From Candidatus Woesearchaeota archaeon CG10_big_fil_rev_8_21_14_0_10_37_12 (lineage in GTDB: Archaea; Nanobdellota; Nanobdellia; Woesearchaeales; ARS49), in the NCBI GenBank assembly GCA_002762795.1, contig PCYA01000008.1, positions 1 to 64,000 on the forward strand: a stretch of DNA of 64,000 bases, given 5' to 3'. This document shows positions 53,132 through 64,000 of this stretch, piece after piece. Position 1 is the first letter of the stretch. Each line of letters begins with the position of its first letter. The position numbers were made by a program, and so were the translations under genes. The notes under the pieces are model-generated. The model made no database searches. It was not told the origin of the DNA and saw nothing but the letters and a program-made list of their open reading frames with translations.

Positions 53132-53704
53132 ATGGCAACAAATAACAAATATACTGTACAACACCGCAGAAAGCGCGAAGGAAAAACAAACTACAAAGTA
53201 CGCATGAAACTATTAAGCGGACACAAACCAAGACTAGTCATCAGAAAAAGCCTAAAACATATACAAGCTCAAATTGTAGAATTCAATCCATCAGGAGACA
53301 AAGTTGTTATCAGCGCGCACACAAAAGAACTTGCAAAATATGGCTGGAAAGGAAGCAACTGCGGAACAAACGCAGCATACTTAACTGGATTGTTACTTGG
53401 CAAAAAAGCAAAAAACAAAACATGCGTACTAGACATAGGACAATACACAAGCGTCAAAGGATGCGTACTATACGCTCTAGTACAAGGCGCAACAGATGCA
53501 GGCCTAAAAATCCCCTGCTCAAAAGAAGTCATCCCATCAAAACAAAGAATACGAGGAGAACACGTAGCCGCATACGCAAAACAACTCAAAACAGACAAAG
53601 ACAAATACTCACAACAATTCGCAACATACATCAAAAAAGGACTTGATCCCGAGACATTACCAAACCACTTTGATGAAATCAAAAAGAAAATCGAGGCACA
53701 ATGA
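53132..53704 (+). CDS. rpl18: Ribosomal protein uL18
   Basis: 190 residues from the third copy of the duplicated start. KYTVQHRRKREGKTNYKVRM is the archaeal L18 start; CGTNAAYLTGLLLGKKAKNK and VLYALVQGATDAGLKIPCSK follow. Binds 5S rRNA with L5. Overlaps S5 (ATGA). Confidence 0.96.
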   Translation: MATNNKYTVQHRRKREGKTNYKVRMKLLSGHKPRLVIRKSLKHIQAQIVEFNPSGDKVVISAHTKELAKYGWKGSNCGTNAAYLTGLLLGKKAKNKTCVLDIGQYTSVKGCVLYALVQGATDAGLKIPCSKEVIPSKQRIRGEHVAAYAKQLKTDKDKYSQQFATYIKKGLDPETLPNHFDEIKKKIEAQ

Positions 53705-54516
53705 CTGAAACAAAAATACAGACAGAAAAACTACCTGAAATAGAAGAAGAAACAAAACTCGAAATAGAACCGATCACAGAAGTAGAAGAAATTGTTGAAG
53801 TAGAAAAAGAAACAAAACCTCAACTGCCACTAAGCATAGAAGGCTGGAAACCAAAAACAAGCATAGGCAAAAAAGTACTGACAAAAGAAATAACCGACAT
53901 AGATGAAATACTTGATCAAGGATCACCCATTTTAGAAGAACAAATAGTAGACATGCTTCTGCCAATACAAACAGAACTTCTCATGGTAGGACAAAGCAAA
54001 GGAAAATTCGGCGGCGGAGCAAGAAGAATATTCAGACAAACACAAAAGAAAACACCCGAAGGAAACAAACCAAGCTTTGCATGCCTTGCAGTAATAGGAA
54101 ACGGCAACGGATACGTAGGAATAGGATACGGAAAAAGCAAAGACACCGTACCAGCAAGAGAAAAAGCAATCAGAAATGCAAAATTAAACATATTCAAAAT
54201 AAGACGAGGAGCAGGCAGTTGGGAAGACGCAACAACAGAAGCACACAGCATACCTTGGAGCGTAGAAGGAAAATGTGGAAGCGCAAGACTAATGCTCAAA
54301 CCAGCACCAAAAGGAAAAGGATTAGTAATAGAACAAGAATGCGCAAAAATACTAAAACTTGCAGGCATACAAAACATATACAGCAAAAGCTACGGCGGAA
54401 CAAAATCAAAAATAAACTTTATCATGGCCTGCGTAGATGCACTCAAACAACTCAACGCGTTCAAACCAAGAGAATCAAACATCAAAAATGTTCACATGAT
54501 TGAGGGCAAAAAATAA
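53701..54516 (+). CDS. rps5: Ribosomal protein uS5 with an acidic N-terminal extension
   Basis: 271 residues. Residues 1-40 are Glu/Thr-rich (LPEIEEETKLEIEPITEVEE), an added disordered extension. The core starts at SIEGWKPKTSIGKKV; KGKFGGGARRIFRQTQK, GNGNGYVGIGYGKSKDTVPA and GGTKSKINFIMACVDALKQ are S5 signatures. Confidence 0.95.
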   Translation: MTETKIQTEKLPEIEEETKLEIEPITEVEEIVEVEKETKPQLPLSIEGWKPKTSIGKKVLTKEITDIDEILDQGSPILEEQIVDMLLPIQTELLMVGQSKGKFGGGARRIFRQTQKKTPEGNKPSFACLAVIGNGNGYVGIGYGKSKDTVPAREKAIRNAKLNIFKIRRGAGSWEDATTEAHSIPWSVEGKCGSARLMLKPAPKGKGLVIEQECAKILKLAGIQNIYSKSYGGTKSKINFIMACVDALKQLNAFKPRESNIKNVHMIEGKK

Positions 54517-54517
54517 A

Positions 54518-54841
54518 ATGAAACTGGCAATAATAAGAGTACGAGGAAGCGTAAGAACAACCAAACAAGTACAAGACACATTCAAACACTTAGGACTTAC
54601 AAGAAAAAACACCTGCGTACTCAAAGAAGACACACCAACAATAAAAGGAATGCTCAAAAAAATAGAACCATTCATAACATGGGGACCTGCAAATGATGAT
54701 ACAGTAAAAAATATTAAAGACAAAAAACATTTAACACCACCAAAAAGCGGATACGGTTTCATAAAAAAACACCACAGAATAAAAGGAGCATACGGCAACA
54801 GAAAAGAAAAAATCAACGATCTTATCATGAGGATGCAATGA
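54518..54841 (+). CDS. rpl30: Ribosomal protein uL30
   Basis: 107 residues from the ATG at 54518; shorter than many archaeal L30 (about 150). LAIIRVRGSVRTTKQVQDTF and LGLTRKNTCVLKEDTPTIKG are the ferredoxin-like core. Overlaps L15 (ATGA). Confidence 0.94.
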   Translation: MKLAIIRVRGSVRTTKQVQDTFKHLGLTRKNTCVLKEDTPTIKGMLKKIEPFITWGPANDDTVKNIKDKKHLTPPKSGYGFIKKHHRIKGAYGNRKEKINDLIMRMQ

Positions 54842-55275
54842 CAGTAAACAAAAGAAGAAAAAGCAGCAGAATGCAAGGCAGCAACACACACGGATGGGGA
54901 CCAAACCAACACCGAGGCAGTGGAAGCCGAGGAGGAGTTGGAAGAGCCGGAACAGGAAAAAAAGCACACAACAAAAAAACAGAAATCTGGAAAAACCCAA
55001 ACTACATGGGAAAATCAGGATTTACCAGATTACGATCCAATAACAAAATAAACGCTATAAGCATACAACACTTGCAAGACAAAATTCCTAATCTCATAAA
55101 AGAAAAAAAAGCATCTGAAAAAAACGGCACGGTAGAAATAAACCTATCAAAAATAAAATATGACAAATTACTAGGAACAGGCAAAATCACGCAAAAGCTT
55201 ACAATTATCGGCCAAGCCACTGCAAAAGCAAAAGAAAAAATTGAACAAGCAGGAGGCAGCGTGGTGCAGGAATGA
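54838..55275 (+). CDS. rpl15: Ribosomal protein uL15
   Basis: 145 residues. RKSSRMQGSNTHGWGPNQHR and GSGSRGGVGRAGTGKKAHNK form the glycine-rich rRNA-binding arm; YDKLLGTGKITQKLTIIGQA the C-terminal domain. Overlaps secY (ATGA). Confidence 0.95.
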   Translation: MTVNKRRKSSRMQGSNTHGWGPNQHRGSGSRGGVGRAGTGKKAHNKKTEIWKNPNYMGKSGFTRLRSNNKINAISIQHLQDKIPNLIKEKKASEKNGTVEINLSKIKYDKLLGTGKITQKLTIIGQATAKAKEKIEQAGGSVVQE

Positions 55276-56663
55276 GTTTACTTGACAATATACTAAACAA
55301 CTTACCAGAAGTTGCACATCCCACTCAGAAAAAACTCTCATTTAAAGAAAAAATTAAATGGACACTCATCATATTGTTGCTCTTTTTCATTCTTGGATTA
55401 GTTCCCCTATTTGGACTAGGACCAAACGAACTTCAAAGATTTGAACTACTCGCAATCATACTAGGAGCAAGCTTTGGAAGCATTATCAGCTTAGGAATAG
55501 GACCAATAGTCACCGCAAGCATCGTATTACAATTACTCAACGGATCAGGAATAATTAAATTTGATCTAACAACAAAAGAAGGCAAAAAAAGATTCCAAGG
55601 AATACAAAAACTTCTTTCTGTAGCTTTTGTCATCTTCGAAGCGTCAATATACGTATTCATGGGCGGACTTGCACCCCCTGAAATATTGATCGGAACAAGC
55701 AGATACTTTCAAATGCAACTAATACTCATTTTCCAATTAATTCTCGGCGGCATCCTCATAATGTTTATGGATGAAGTCACAAACAAATGGGGATTAGGAT
55801 CAGGAATAAGCCTGTTCATCGCAGCAGGAGTCAGCCAAAGCTTGTTCATACAATTACTAAGCCCATTACCATCACCACAAAACCCCGCAGTTGCAACAGG
55901 AGCAATACCCGCATTATTCCAAAGCTTAAGCACAGGAGATCCACAAACAGCACTATTATTAGTAGCAGGAATACTTGCAACAGTTGCCGTGTTCGCATTA
56001 GCAGTCTATGCACAAGCAATGAAAGTAGAAATACCCTTGTCTTTCGGCAGGGTACGAGGACATGGAATCAGATGGCCATTAAATTTCATTTACACAAGCA
56101 ACATGCCAGTGATACTCATCAGCGCACTACTTGCTAACATGCAATTGTGGGCGCAATTGTTCCAAAAATGGGGATATCCAATACTCGGAACATTTGTAGG
56201 AAACCAACCAGCAAGCGGTTTAATTTCATGGACAACACCACCAAACATTGTAGGAAGTGCAATCAGAGGAGGACTAACAGGAGGAATGATCTTACAAGGA
56301 CTTGGCTACATGATATTCATGGTCATAGGAGCCGTTGTATTCTCCTGGTTCTGGGTACAAACAAGCGGAATGGATGCACGAAGCCAAGCCAAAAACATGA
56401 TGAACAGCGGCTTACAAATACCAGGATTCAGACGAGACGAAAGAGTACTTGAAAGATTACTACAAAGATATATCAGCCCTTTAACAATCATGGGTGCAAT
56501 AACAATAGGTGTACTCGCGTCAGTTGCAGACTTAAGCGGAACACTCACCAACGGAGCAAGTTTATTCCTATCAGTCATGATCATATATAGATTCTACGAA
56601 GACATAGCAAGACAACACATGATGGACATGAACCCAATGCTGCGCAAATTCATGGGAGGCTAA
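55272..56663 (+). CDS. secY: Preprotein translocase subunit SecY
   Basis: 463 residues with about ten membrane helices. LGIGPIVTASIVLQLL, TNKWGLGSGISLFIAAGVSQ and the cytosolic loops AMKVEIPLSFGRVRGHGIRW and RRDERVLERLLQRYISPL are SecY signatures. Forms the channel with Sec61 beta (4.1 kb) and SecE (not seen here). Confidence 0.97.
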   Translation: MSLLDNILNNLPEVAHPTQKKLSFKEKIKWTLIILLLFFILGLVPLFGLGPNELQRFELLAIILGASFGSIISLGIGPIVTASIVLQLLNGSGIIKFDLTTKEGKKRFQGIQKLLSVAFVIFEASIYVFMGGLAPPEILIGTSRYFQMQLILIFQLILGGILIMFMDEVTNKWGLGSGISLFIAAGVSQSLFIQLLSPLPSPQNPAVATGAIPALFQSLSTGDPQTALLLVAGILATVAVFALAVYAQAMKVEIPLSFGRVRGHGIRWPLNFIYTSNMPVILISALLANMQLWAQLFQKWGYPILGTFVGNQPASGLISWTTPPNIVGSAIRGGLTGGMILQGLGYMIFMVIGAVVFSWFWVQTSGMDARSQAKNMMNSGLQIPGFRRDERVLERLLQRYISPLTIMGAITIGVLASVADLSGTLTNGASLFLSVMIIYRFYEDIARQHMMDMNPMLRKFMGG

Positions 56664-56665
56664 CA

Positions 56666-57406
56666 ATGGTCTTTCTTGATTCTTTTTTTACAAAAACTCT
56701 TGGATTCATGCTGAACTGGAATCCTTTATGGGCAATACTCTTGTTGTCATTTGTTATTTCTTTAGTAATTGTTGTTCTTTATAGAGTATTCACAGATCAG
56801 ACAGAAATGAAACAACTCAAAGACCAACTTAAAGAACACCAAACCAAGATGAAAAAACTCAAAGATGATCCTGCAAAACTCATGAAAGTGCAAAAAGAAG
56901 CCATGGGAATTAACATGCAATACATGAAAAAAAGCATGAAGCCAACACTAATTACGTTCATTCCAATATTGCTTATCTTTGGCTGGATGAATGCACATTT
57001 CGCATATGAACCAATTATTCCCGGGCAAGAATTTAATGTGCTTGTAGAAGTACGCGAAGGAATCACGGGCAACATTACAACAACTGTTCCTGAAGGAATA
57101 AATGTAGTTGGTGAAACAGAGAAAAAAGTCGAAAACAATCAAGCCAAATTCACGTTCAAAGGCAAAGAAGGAGATTACTTCATTACAGTCAAAACAGAAG
57201 AACATGAAGCAGACATAAAAGTATTAATAACAAACGACAGAAACTACGCAGAAGTCATCCAGAAACCAGAAAACAAGGCATTCAAAAGCATCACCATTGA
57301 GAATAAAACATTGAAACTTATCTGGGGATTAAGCTGGATATGGATATACATAATTTCTGCAATAGTATTCAGCATAGGATTAAGAAAAATTCTAAATGTG
57401 CATTAA
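56666..57406 (+). CDS. EMC3/YidC-superfamily (DUF106) insertase with external domain
   Basis: This 246-residue protein has a first helix (about 18-42), a cytosolic coiled coil (QTEMKQLKDQLKEHQTKMKK), KSMKPTLITFIPILLIFGWM as helix two, and a final helix (about 220-242). Archaeal DUF106 proteins are EMC3/Get1/YidC relatives that insert membrane proteins. Here an extra beta-rich external domain of about 90 residues (GQEFNVLVEVREGITGNITT and following) lies before the last helix. Three bases after secY. Confidence 0.85.
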   Translation: MVFLDSFFTKTLGFMLNWNPLWAILLLSFVISLVIVVLYRVFTDQTEMKQLKDQLKEHQTKMKKLKDDPAKLMKVQKEAMGINMQYMKKSMKPTLITFIPILLIFGWMNAHFAYEPIIPGQEFNVLVEVREGITGNITTTVPEGINVVGETEKKVENNQAKFTFKGKEGDYFITVKTEEHEADIKVLITNDRNYAEVIQKPENKAFKSITIENKTLKLIWGLSWIWIYIISAIVFSIGLRKILNVH

Positions 57407-57503
57407 CAACACTCAGCGACGAGCCATTTATAAATAGAAAGCTTTTTAAAGGACAAAAGCATTTATAAAGCTCAGGGGAACAGTTGAACATAAGAGATCA
57501 AAC

Positions 57504-58073
<570 letters not shown>

Positions 58074-58151
58074 ATTCTCGCGTTCACATATCGTAAACTT
58101 TACGTCTTTTGCACCACAAAACTTAAATCAAGTAGACTGCAAACAACATAT

Positions 58152-58202
58152 AGTAAGCAGAAACTATTGCTGTGTACTATAATATACAGCCTACTGCTTA
58201 CT
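58152..58202. repeat. AGTAAGCAG hairpin before mcm
   Basis: AGTAAGCAG (58152-58160) pairs with CTGCTTACT (58194-58202) just before the MCM start. Related AGTAAGCAGTAAACAGTA strings occur near 6141, 34430 and inside the gene at 17701. Confidence 0.6.
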
Positions 58203-58216
58203 AACAAGGGGGAGTA

Positions 58217-60229
58217 ATGGATGCAACAACACTAGTCAACATAATCACTGAATTTCTCGAGAAGAACTATTATGATCAACTATTAGAAAAAGTACGAAGA
58301 GGAGAAAAAAGCCTCTCAATAAATTTTACGTCACTTGCAGAATACAACCCAGAAATAGCAGACATGCTGTTAGACCAACCACAAGAAATTCTCAAAGCAG
58401 GAGAGATTGCAATAAACCAACTCAACCTAGGACAAGACATTAAAGGATTTATTATTAGATTTGCGAATTTGCCTGCGAGCGCCGGAACACTCATCAGACA
58501 AATCAGAAGCAAACACCTCGGCAAGCTGTTAACCTTCCAAGGAGTTGTCAGAAACAAAAGCGAAGTAAGACCACAAGTCGCCTCTGCAAAATTCGAATGT
58601 CCCTCTTGCGGAAACACACACGTCATTTTACAACTCGACAGCAAATTTCACGAGCCAACTAAATGCAGCTGCGGAAGAAAAGGAAAATTCACACTTGTAC
58701 ACAAAGATCTAGTAGACGCACAAATGATGGTCTTAGAAGAAGACCCAGAACAACTAGAAGGAGGAGAACAACCCAAACGAATGAACGTGCTACTACAAAA
58801 TGACTTAGTAAGCCCCCTCACAGAGAAAAAAACAAACCCTGGAAGCAAAGTACAAGTAATAGGAGAAGTCAAAGAAGTACCAATTTATCTCCGATCAGGA
58901 GGACAAAGCACCAAATTCGACTTATTCATCGAAGCAAACAACTTCATACCAATAGAATCAGACTACACAGATATAAAAATAAGCCCAGAAGAAGAACAAG
59001 AAATAAAAAAATTAGCAAAAAAACCAGATGTGCTTACAATCATACGAGATTCAATTGCGCCAAGCATCTACGGACACGAAAAAATCAAAGAAGCCCTTGC
59101 ACTACAAGCAATGGGAGGCATACGAAAAAAAAGAGATGACGGAGTCGTAACAAGAGGAGACATCCACATGCTATTCGTAGGAGACCCTGGAGCAGCAAAA
59201 TCACAACTACTCAAACGAATGCAAGTAGTAGCACCAAAAGCAAGATACATAACAGGAAAAGGAGCTTCGGGCGCAGGACTCAGCGCAGCAGTAGTCAAAG
59301 ACGAATTCCTACAAGGATGGAGCTTAGAAGCAGGAGCATTAGTACTAGCAAACAAAGGATTGTGCATGATCGACGAAATGGACAAAATGAGCAAAGAAGA
59401 CGGATGGGCAATGCACGAAGCACTAGAACAACAAACCGTAACAATCAGCAAAGCAAACATTCAAGCAAGTCTAAGATGCGAAACAACAGTACTAGCAGCA
59501 GCAAACCCAAAATTTGGAAGATTTGATCCATACGACACTATTGCGAACCAAATCAACATGGCACCAACACTCATTAACAGATTTGATTTAATATTTCCAA
59601 TAAAAGACCTGCCAGACCCAACAAAAGACGAAAAACTTGCGCAATTCGTATTAGAACTGCACCAAAACAATGTTGAAACACCACAAATACCAACAGAACT
59701 CCTGAGAAAATATATTGCGTACGCACGACAAAACATGTTCCCAAAACTTACTGACGCTGCAATAATAGAACTCAAAGAATACTACCTAAAAATGCGCGCG
59801 AGTGTTAGCTCAGCAAACGTCAAAAGCGTACCAATAAGCGCACGACAACTAGAAGGACTAGTAAGACTATCAGAAGCACACGCCAAAATGCGCCTGAGCG
59901 AAAAAGTAGAAAAAAAAGACGCAAAAAAAGCAATAGAACTTCTAGACTACTGCTTACGACAAGTCGCGCTCGACGAAAAAACAGGAACATTTGACATAGA
60001 CAGAATAGCAACAGATACCCCTGCGAGCAGTCGCAACAAGTTGCATTTAATTAAAGAAATAATTAACGAATTAGAACAAATAACAGGAAAAACAATACCT
60101 CTTGATGACATCCTCAAAGCAGCATCAAGCAAAGACGTGAATGAAAGAGAAACTGAAGAGATCATTCAAAAATTAAAAAGAGCAGGAGACATATTTGAAC
60201 CAAGAAGAGGATTTATTAGTAAAATATAA
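58217..60229 (+). CDS. mcm: MCM replicative helicase
   Basis: 670 residues. N-terminal domain with zinc site CPSCGN...CSCG (about 133-157). Walker A GDPGAAKSQLLK, presensor GKGASGAGLSAAVV, Walker B LCMIDEMDKM, sensor LAAANPKFGRFD and arginine finger LINRFDLIF are intact. C-terminal winged helix closes the protein. Unwinds DNA at forks; oriC lies 3.4 kb downstream. Confidence 0.97.
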   Translation: MDATTLVNIITEFLEKNYYDQLLEKVRRGEKSLSINFTSLAEYNPEIADMLLDQPQEILKAGEIAINQLNLGQDIKGFIIRFANLPASAGTLIRQIRSKHLGKLLTFQGVVRNKSEVRPQVASAKFECPSCGNTHVILQLDSKFHEPTKCSCGRKGKFTLVHKDLVDAQMMVLEEDPEQLEGGEQPKRMNVLLQNDLVSPLTEKKTNPGSKVQVIGEVKEVPIYLRSGGQSTKFDLFIEANNFIPIESDYTDIKISPEEEQEIKKLAKKPDVLTIIRDSIAPSIYGHEKIKEALALQAMGGIRKKRDDGVVTRGDIHMLFVGDPGAAKSQLLKRMQVVAPKARYITGKGASGAGLSAAVVKDEFLQGWSLEAGALVLANKGLCMIDEMDKMSKEDGWAMHEALEQQTVTISKANIQASLRCETTVLAAANPKFGRFDPYDTIANQINMAPTLINRFDLIFPIKDLPDPTKDEKLAQFVLELHQNNVETPQIPTELLRKYIAYARQNMFPKLTDAAIIELKEYYLKMRASVSSANVKSVPISARQLEGLVRLSEAHAKMRLSEKVEKKDAKKAIELLDYCLRQVALDEKTGTFDIDRIATDTPASSRNKLHLIKEIINELEQITGKTIPLDDILKAASSKDVNERETEEIIQKLKRAGDIFEPRRGFISKI

Positions 60230-61408: not shown

Positions 61409-61801
61409 GTGGGAAACAAACAAAAAGGAAGCAGTGCTGAACGCGAATTAATTCATTTATTCTGGAAAACAGACTGGGCAGCAACAAGAGTAGCAGGAAG
61501 CGGGAGTATGCAATACCCCAGCCCAGACATCATTGCACACAGACCAGGAATAAGCTTAGCAATAGAATGCAAGGCAACACGACAAACATACAAATATCTC
61601 GAAAAAGAAGAAATACAACAACTTATTGAATACTCAATAAAAGCGGGAATAACTCCTCTTATTGCCGTGAGATTTCCCAGACAACCATGGTATTTCTTGA
61701 GTCCAGAGCAACTCAAAGAGACAGAAAAATTCCACATGATATCTCTTGAAGAAGCACAAAAAAAAGGCAAAACATTTGAAACACTCACGAAAGGTTTATA
61801 A
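61409..61801 (+). CDS. hjc: Holliday junction resolvase Hjc
   Basis: 130 residues, GTG start. KGSSAERELIHLFW, MQYPSPDIIAH and LAIECKATRQ contain the catalytic E, D and ExK of the archaeal resolvase. A dimer that cuts four-way junctions. Followed closely by TFE. Confidence 0.95.
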   Translation: MGNKQKGSSAERELIHLFWKTDWAATRVAGSGSMQYPSPDIIAHRPGISLAIECKATRQTYKYLEKEEIQQLIEYSIKAGITPLIAVRFPRQPWYFLSPEQLKETEKFHMISLEEAQKKGKTFETLTKGL

Positions 61802-61833
61802 ATAAAGTTCAGACAAAAAACAATGGTGTGTTG

Positions 61834-62502
61834 ATGAAGCTAACAGCAAAACTAATAGAAGAACTTGTTTCTGAATTGGCCGGACAAGATGTTGTACCGC
61901 TTGTAGAAGCCCTACGAAACAAATCAAATGTTTCAGAACTCAAACTCGCGGAACAACTAAAACGCGAAATAAACACAATAAGAAACATGCTTTACAGACT
62001 CTATGAACACAACTTAGTCAGCTTCACACGAAAAAAAGACAAAAAAAAAGGATGGTACATTTACTACTGGACCTTGAACTCAAACCGTGTAAAAGATCTT
62101 ATTGCTGAAGTAAAAAAACAAAAAATACATCGATTACAAGAAAGATTGGACAGAGAACAACAAACACAATTCTATAGCTGTTCAGAAAAGTGTGTGCGCC
62201 TAGACTTTGAAGAAAGTCACGATCATGGATTCAAATGCCCTGAATGCGGAACCCTATTAGATGTTGAAAACAATAAACACATTGTTGAAAGACTTGCCAA
62301 AACAATTTCTGAAATGCAAAAAGAACTAGATGAACTACAAAAAGAAGAAGTTCCTGTAAAACGCACAAAAGTAATTGAAAAAAGTGTTAAAAAGAAAACA
62401 CGACCTGAAAAAACAGCAAAAGGTCAAAAAAGCGCAAAGAACACAAAAGCAAAGAGAAAAATATCAAGCAATAAAAAATCAACAAAAAAGAAAAGGAAAT
62501 AA
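61834..62502 (+). CDS. tfe: Transcription initiation factor TFE (alpha)
   Basis: About 222 residues from the ATG at 61834 (GTG at 61828 possible). LAEQLKREINTIRNMLYRLY is the winged helix; YSCSEKCVRLDFEESHDHGF with CPECGTLL is the zinc ribbon. A lysine-rich tail of about 50 residues is unusual. Assists promoter opening with TBP and TFB. Confidence 0.93.
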   Translation: MKLTAKLIEELVSELAGQDVVPLVEALRNKSNVSELKLAEQLKREINTIRNMLYRLYEHNLVSFTRKKDKKKGWYIYYWTLNSNRVKDLIAEVKKQKIHRLQERLDREQQTQFYSCSEKCVRLDFEESHDHGFKCPECGTLLDVENNKHIVERLAKTISEMQKELDELQKEEVPVKRTKVIEKSVKKKTRPEKTAKGQKSAKNTKAKRKISSNKKSTKKKRK

Positions 62503-62776: not shown

Positions 62777-63568
62777 TTATTTCTTATCCCACAACAAATT
62801 AAATGTGTTTTCAAAGTTTTTGGCAAAACCTTCAGCAGCCGCCCAAACACCAAAATCGTAATTTGGATGAGTATTATCATCCAACACCATAAAAGTAACT
62901 TGATTGCCATCAAAAACACAAAAACGCGCAGGGACGTTTGCAACTTGCTTGATTTTTGCCAAACCTGCAAGCTTTTTCATCGCAGCATCAGAACCCTTAT
63001 CCTTTCCTGATGTTAAGATCTTAATAGAAACACCTTTTGCCTTTGCTTTCTGTAATACTCCTTTAAGCGCATCGGCTTTACGCACAAGACCTTGTGCAGT
63101 TGTTGAAATACAAATTGTTTTTTGCGCATTTTTAATACGAGAAGAAAGATGATGGTACAAATTCTGGCGGCCTCTTACTGCGCCAGTAAGATCAACAGGA
63201 TCAACCATCTTAATACCCTGATCGTGCAAATTGTTAAGCTCTGTAAGAACTTCACTTTCTTTAAGCTTCTCAATCACTTTTTCCTGTCTTTCCGCGTCTT
63301 CATGAATGGATTTCTTAACTCGATCAACAACTTCCGCAGGAGGCACAGCAATATATTTTATGGGTTTGCCGAGCTTCATCACAACAAAACCCTTTCGTTC
63401 AAGACTTTCAAGAACATCGTAACTTCTGCTTCTTGGCACGTTTGCAATATCAGACAGCTCTCCTGCAGTTGCAATACCCCTTGACAACAAAGCAGTCCAT
63501 AATTTTGCTTCATAGCTGTTAAGCCCAAAATCTTTAAGTTTACCTAAAAAATCCTTCTGAACAATCAT
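62777..63568 (-). CDS. TrmB-family transcriptional regulator
   Basis: 263 residues from the ATG at 63568 with GGGGGAAT upstream; the longer frame is rejected. LKDFGLNSYEAKLWTALLSR, ADIANVPRSRSYDVLESLER is the TrmB winged helix. The C-terminal half is the PLD-like domain (TICISTTAQGLVRKADAL). Lies directly beside oriC, diverging from the gene at 63977. Confidence 0.88.
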   Translation of the reverse strand: MIVQKDFLGKLKDFGLNSYEAKLWTALLSRGIATAGELSDIANVPRSRSYDVLESLERKGFVVMKLGKPIKYIAVPPAEVVDRVKKSIHEDAERQEKVIEKLKESEVLTELNNLHDQGIKMVDPVDLTGAVRGRQNLYHHLSSRIKNAQKTICISTTAQGLVRKADALKGVLQKAKAKGVSIKILTSGKDKGSDAAMKKLAGLAKIKQVANVPARFCVFDGNQVTFMVLDDNTHPNYDFGVWAAAEGFAKNFENTFNLLWDKK

Positions 63569-63651: not shown

Positions 63652-63934
63652 GACCCTTTGATTTCCTGTGGAGGTTGTATTGTTTTTTGTGGGTTTTGAT
63701 TTTACCATGAAAACCAACAGAAAAAATTAAAAAACCAAATAAATTATTTATTTATTTATTTATTAATTTATTTATTAATTAATTATTATATAGAAAATAA
63801 TAATAATTGGTTGTTTTTTGACGTAAATCTTTCTATTTCTTCTACAGATTTCACAATAAGGAGCAAAAACACAAAAACACATTAAAACAAACAACAATAA
63901 AAACACCAACTCCACAGGAAATCAAGGGGTGGGA
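63652..63934. other. Candidate replication origin (oriC) with inverted ORB boxes
   Basis: Two long boxes in inverted orientation share CTCCACAGGAAATCAA followed by a G run: 63652-63677 (minus) and 63907-63934 (plus, ending AAGGGGTGGGAC). They match the archaeal origin recognition box pattern (CCAGTGGAAAC-A-AGGGG with its G string). Between them 230 bases are AT-rich, with ATTTATTTATTTATT runs at about 63740-63790 that would unwind easily. The following gene starts at 63977. Confidence 0.82.
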
Positions 63935-63946
63935 CATCTCCAAAGC

Positions 63947-63958
63947 TTTAAATAGTAA
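63947..63958 (+). promoter_or_regulatory. TATA box of the gene at the window edge
   Basis: CTTTAAATAGTA lies about 20-30 bases before the ATG at 63977, consistent with a leaderless transcript starting near the ATG. Confidence 0.5.
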
Positions 63959-63976
63959 ATAATAAAATATTTCCAC

Positions 63977-64000
63977 ATGAAAGAAAAGGGGCTGGTAGAT
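63977..64000 (+). CDS. Start of a gene next to oriC, probably orc1/cdc6 (partial)
   Basis: Only eight codons, MKEKGLVD, are visible before the window ends. Identity as the initiator Orc1/Cdc6 is inferred from location: archaeal origins are usually beside it, with the ORB G-string pointing at the gene. Confidence 0.4.

Follow-up and report, generated by a model that had tools for sequence, protein, structure and literature searches.

A predicted chromosomal replication origin beside orc1 in a Woesearchaeota-type DPANN archaeon

Organization of the locus

The analyzed window covers positions 1-64,000 of contig C14 (81,483 bp), which belongs to a genome of 1.35 Mb that is 99% complete. At its right end, the DNA between a divergent TrmB-family regulator gene and the start of an orc1/cdc6 gene contains two boxes that face each other across a strongly AT-rich stretch (Table 1). 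The boxes share the 16-mer CTCCACAGGAAATCAA, whose only two exact copies in the window are found at 63658-63673 on the minus strand and at 63910-63925 on the plus strand, with no further similar site in the window at up to 3 mismatches. This is the sole perfect 16-bp inverted pair with a spacing of 40-400 nt in the entire contig, and the wider inverted arms show 83% complementarity over 35 nt. A sequence-only reading of this DNA had described 16 identical bases plus a G run in inverted orientation; the inverted pair stands, but the long G run is a feature of the right box, which ends in GGGGTGGG, the left box having just a short GGG. The 230 bp of extremely AT-rich DNA that the same reading placed between the boxes correspond to about 234 nt with 81% AT, within which lies the 100-nt segment with the lowest GC in the contig (7 G+C, i.e. 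93% AT, the next-lowest separate site having 19). The gene start that it placed 43 bp further on corresponds to the ATG at 63977, which follows the right G run by about 43 nt. The 7% GC core between the boxes provides the probable AT-rich unwinding element that characterizes ORB origins.

Table 1. Features of the predicted origin and its neighborhood, in window coordinates
Feature	Position	Strand	Basis
mcm, replicative helicase gene	58217..60229	+	Pfam
hjc, Holliday junction resolvase gene	61409..61801	+	Pfam; gene order in relatives
TFE (TFIIE alpha) gene, conserved origin neighborhood	61828..62502	+	Pfam; gene order in relatives
Divergent TrmB-family regulator gene, left neighbor of the predicted origin	62777..63568	-	Pfam TrmB
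ORB1, distal origin recognition box, CCTCCACAGGAAATCAAAGGGT	63653..63674	-	Exact ORB-pattern match, one of two in genome; second-best contig match to published ORB
AT-rich inter-ORB DNA, 81% AT	63675..63908		Computed composition
Probable duplex-unwinding core, 7 G+C in 100	63719..63818		Minimum of the 81-kb contig
ORB2, proximal origin recognition box with G run, ACTCCACAGGAAATCAAGGGGTGGGA	63909..63934	+	Exact ORB-pattern match; best contig match to published ORB
TATA-like element TTTAAATA of orc1, ~30 nt before ATG	63947..63954	+	Sequence; similar spacing in relatives
ORB3, ORB-like element over orc1 start codon, TTTCCACATGAAAGAAAAGGGG, possible operator	63970..63991	+	Only 1-mismatch ORB match in genome; at or near this position in 39/53 loci
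Start of orc1/cdc6 (403 aa; runs to contig position 65188)	63977..64000	+	Pfam domains, structure matches

The orc1 gene and its neighborhood

The gene beginning at this ATG encodes a protein with the Pfam AAA, Cdc6_lid and Cdc6_C domains, the latter two above cut-off, and its nearest solved structures are those of Sulfolobus Cdc6-1 (PDB: 2qby_A; E 3.6e-106) and of the Aeropyrum homologue (PDB: 2v1u_A; E 4.9e-98). This bears out the earlier guess that the next gene was probably orc1/cdc6. The winged-helix and wing sequences of the protein are well preserved, and by its sequence it is an Orc1/Cdc6 protein of the Orc1-1 type. Thus, the locus shows the immediate linkage to an orc1/cdc6 gene that is typical of archaeal ORB origins. 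Directly 3' of orc1 lie the genes for DP1 and then DP2, the subunits of DNA polymerase D, and the order cdc6-DP1-DP2 constitutes the context of Pyrococcus-like origins (PMC2643942, PMC4010727). On the other side of the boxes, the mcm and hjc genes that the sequence-only reading placed within 6 kb are confirmed by their Pfam matches. The closest named relatives are Woesearchaeota genomes.

A second, diverged Orc1/Cdc6 paralogue of 358 aa (25% identical) is encoded on another contig (G000:C16; L088:1933-3009), and most relatives also carry a second paralogue. The region upstream of the paralogue on C16 contained no ORB core, and a second ORB origin at that gene was accordingly rejected.

Identity and conservation of the boxes

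Archaeal ORBs follow the consensus CTTCCAGTGGAAACGAAAGGGGT, with examples of the type GTTCCAGTGGAAATGA-AGGGGT in Methanomassiliicoccales (PMC4153887). Compared to the latter type, the proximal box is the top site of the contig, with agreement at 17 of 22 positions, and the distal box is the second-best site, with agreement at 16. In a scan of the whole genome (1.35 Mb) with the pattern TCCANNNGAAAYNAARGGG, the only matches without mismatch were ORB1 and ORB2, the single match with one mismatch was ORB3 at the orc1 start, and ten matches with two mismatches were scattered elsewhere. The locus contains just two full ORBs, which are inverted and resemble known archaeal ORBs, at least two such boxes being the mark of an archaeal ORB origin. 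Their description as ORB-like by the sequence-only reading agrees with the match to published archaeal ORBs and with a layout kept in relatives, and the search for further ORBs that it proposed yielded the third element over the orc1 start codon.

Conservation was assessed over 53 non-identical loci (the present locus and relatives) with a leave-one-out weight matrix and a 95% null. At least one site above this null is present in all 53 upstream regions and at least two in 45 of the 53, the training sites of the matrix being drawn from the same upstream regions and so not independent, with leave-one-out scoring and the genome-wide scan as the safeguards. In the usual layout, AT-rich DNA separates a distal minus-strand box from a plus-strand box located approximately 60-270 nt before orc1. 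The order orc1-DP1-DP2 is also conserved in relatives, and the more extended array hjc-TFE-TrmB-oriC-orc1-DP1-DP2 is collinear across many independent assemblies, such that both the boxes and the gene order show the conservation expected of an archaeal ORB origin. Some of the relatives with conserved boxes have a neighbor other than TrmB.

Certain rearrangements were also observed around the conserved core. The mcm-secY-ribosomal block lies to the left of oriC on the plus strand in the window (53700-60229), whereas in G007, G011, G015 and G016 it is found about 11-18 kb to the right on the minus strand, implying that the origin core is inverted relative to this block. At one locus (L027; CP070803.1), orc1 is directly followed by the gene for the large subunit of PolD, the small-subunit gene being located across the origin and on the other strand. 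In many relatives (e.g. L006, L010, L017, L019 and L032), the contig breaks off in the origin or beside it, no more than about 700 nt before orc1, perhaps because the AT-rich core assembles poorly.

A third box at the orc1 start

The plus-strand arrangement of ORB3 is common to three close relatives, and in many other relatives a minus-strand box precedes the orc1 start by about 27 nt, immediately behind a TATA-like element. With a strict ORB core (TTCCANNNGAAA, either strand, at most 1 mismatch), a box is detected between positions -45 and +8 of orc1 in 39 of the 53 loci, compared to 0.71 expected from shuffling; among control windows the core occurs in 4 of 318 inside orc1 and in 13 of 326 far upstream. 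ORB3 overlaps the codons for MKEKG, and part of its match could be codon-driven.

The spacing between the TATA-like element and the start codon suggests a leaderless orc1 transcript, in which case bound Orc1 would cover the transcription start. Given this location of an initiator box on the start of the initiator gene itself and on its probable transcription start, Orc1 probably represses its own gene via ORB3. The same logic of initiator autoregulation is seen in the DnaA boxes of the dnaA promoter (PMC3936714). No report of archaeal Orc1 autoregulation was found in the literature searched, though it may still be reported elsewhere; the conserved third box makes such autoregulation directly testable.

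Strand composition at the locus and across genomes

At a bidirectional origin, strand composition is expected to flip. Almost the whole of C14 has a negative raw GC skew, and no change of sign at the site was found in the third codon positions of this contig, where the GC skew is -0.466 to the left (64 genes, 95% CI -0.505 to -0.427) and -0.438 to the right (15 genes, 95% CI -0.521 to -0.339). The skew change that the sequence-only reading had itself put forward as a check is thus absent, with values of about -0.45 on both sides. The third-position skew is negative in 79 of 79 genes tested, irrespective of gene strand, and looks like a replication-linked asymmetry. As plus- and minus-strand genes share the sign, the skew in this genome cannot be put down to gene-strand bias. 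The collinear gene array in many independent assemblies likewise rules out an explanation of the missing switch by a misjoin at the origin, and a simple inversion that displaced the switch is unlikely, since one containing oriC would be reasoned to retain the switch at oriC.

Among the relatives with strong skew, a single sign extends across the locus in G007, G015, G016, G037, G038 and G046. Relative to orc1, this sign is negative in the first three, which are same-family relatives, and positive in the last three. In the order-level relatives G035 and G044, the third-position skew changes sign at or near orc1, rising from the lower to the higher value. Sampled stretches of the complete chromosome of G035 gave negative values at 204-764 kb and mostly positive ones elsewhere, the boundary falling at or close to orc1; in G044 the change near orc1 has a strong coding-strand bias superimposed on it. 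Another candidate, L012, was set aside as a clean skew switch, its pattern being mostly coding-strand bias when viewed gene by gene.

The skew map of the present genome spans roughly 0.8 of 1.35 Mb in partly overlapping stretches, over which the long contigs are mostly single-sign each. On C12, a sharp negative-to-positive switch of the origin type occurs at about 87.8-89.4 kb (L203, L196), adjoining a tRNA-like gene whose anticodon call is odd, possibly because of an intron. No ORB or orc gene was found beside it, and with only the tRNA-like gene present this switch is ruled out as an ORB origin. A terminus-type switch is seen on C18 near 20 kb. Either one inversion in a single-sign chromosome or a true origin and terminus would create this pair of switches.

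Interpretation as a chromosomal origin

Anatomy and conservation together support an origin of the standard archaeal oriC type, and the locus very probably represents the chromosomal replication origin (oriC), adjacent to orc1, of a Woesearchaeota-type DPANN archaeon. Weighing against this reading are the skew that keeps one sign across the locus, here and in the six relatives named above, and the presence of no more than two full ORBs. The sequence, position, uniqueness and conservation of the boxes are features observed at the locus, and the strand skew at the site gives no sign of two-way forks. By analogy with well-studied homologues, Orc1 from the adjoining gene would bind the two ORBs facing each other across the 234-nt AT-rich stretch, melt the 93% AT core and help load MCM there. 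Bound at ORB3, it would probably also repress orc1. Two traits set the locus apart from an ordinary origin: a box is conserved at the start of orc1, and the skew does not switch. The literature searched contained no description of an origin from Woesearchaeota-type or DPANN archaea, and the aligned ORB set allows an origin to be predicted in many fragmentary genomes of the Woesearchaeota group.

It is highly improbable that the boxes merely serve the divergent promoters of orc1 and TrmB as an operator. Their placement between divergent genes, one of them for a TrmB-family regulator, and the third box on the orc1 start are in keeping with such a role, but the match to the ORBs of other archaea, the AT-rich core and the orc1-polD context argue against it, as does conservation that extends to relatives in which TrmB is not the neighbor. 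Another reading is that of a conserved but little-used or dormant origin through which forks pass, with initiation mostly elsewhere or dependent on recombination as in Thermococcus. Archaea able to do without oriC are known, given that T. kodakarensis can lose it and that T. barophilus has recombination-dependent replication beside oriC (PMC5663688, PMC11005403), and both the skew without a switch at the locus and the sharp origin-type switch on C12 would fit this reading. However, the C12 switch adjoins only a tRNA-like gene, with neither ORB nor orc, and could be the end of an inversion, and the conservation of ORBs, AT-rich core and orc1 linkage in relatives argues for use of the origin, making dormancy quite unlikely.

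It is also possible, though unlikely, that a real Orc1-bound origin replicates mainly one way, either by unidirectional firing or with origin and terminus close together, which is compatible with the locus being oriC. This is favored by the strong strand-independent third-position skew with the same sign on both sides and confidence limits well below zero, by the similarly negative sign relative to orc1 in the same-family G007, G015 and G016, and by the Microgenomates bacteria, in which a single-sign skew over whole chromosomes has led to unidirectional theta replication being proposed (PMC7143001). However, G037, G038 and G046 have the opposite sign relative to orc1, G035 and G044 look bidirectional, and C12 and C18 of the genome itself contain sign switches, though one inversion could yield such a pair; moreover, skew is indirect evidence. 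A more inclusive proposal, namely that the lineage copies its chromosome through oriC essentially one way (unidirectionally or passively), with no opposed replichores and with self-control of the initiator via the start-site ORB, is tentative and unlikely. That several genomes lack a skew switch although their origin is well formed presents a concrete puzzle, and for the present site it leaves a real chance of forks running one way.

Comparison with known origins

As a predicted oriC, the locus resembles the single origin of the Pyrococcus type in that inverted ORBs in an AT-rich stretch adjoin cdc6/orc1, the PolD subunit genes come next, and further replication genes cluster nearby. Unlike that type, it has only two full ORBs and another over the orc1 start, its genome encodes a diverged second orc paralogue elsewhere (on C16), and the skew in this genome does not switch at the site. 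In the sequence of the initiator it is closest to the Orc1-1 origins of Aeropyrum pernix and Sulfolobus (2v1u, 2qby), with which it also shares an AT-rich melting region between inverted ORBs, although the A. pernix origin has four ORBs (PMC8287685) whereas here two flank the AT-rich region. The initiator box on the promoter or start of the initiator's own gene is comparable to the DnaA boxes of the bacterial dnaA promoter, but protein and box are unrelated to these and the autoregulation is here only inferred. The boxes are akin to the ORBs of Methanomassiliicoccales (PMC4153887), which are of the GTTCCAGTGGAAATGA-AGGGGT type and share 17/22 positions with the proximal box, the difference lying in the dyad center, with CA instead of GT or CT; these archaea likewise possess a second copy of orc1/cdc6 that is less conserved and located in a different context.
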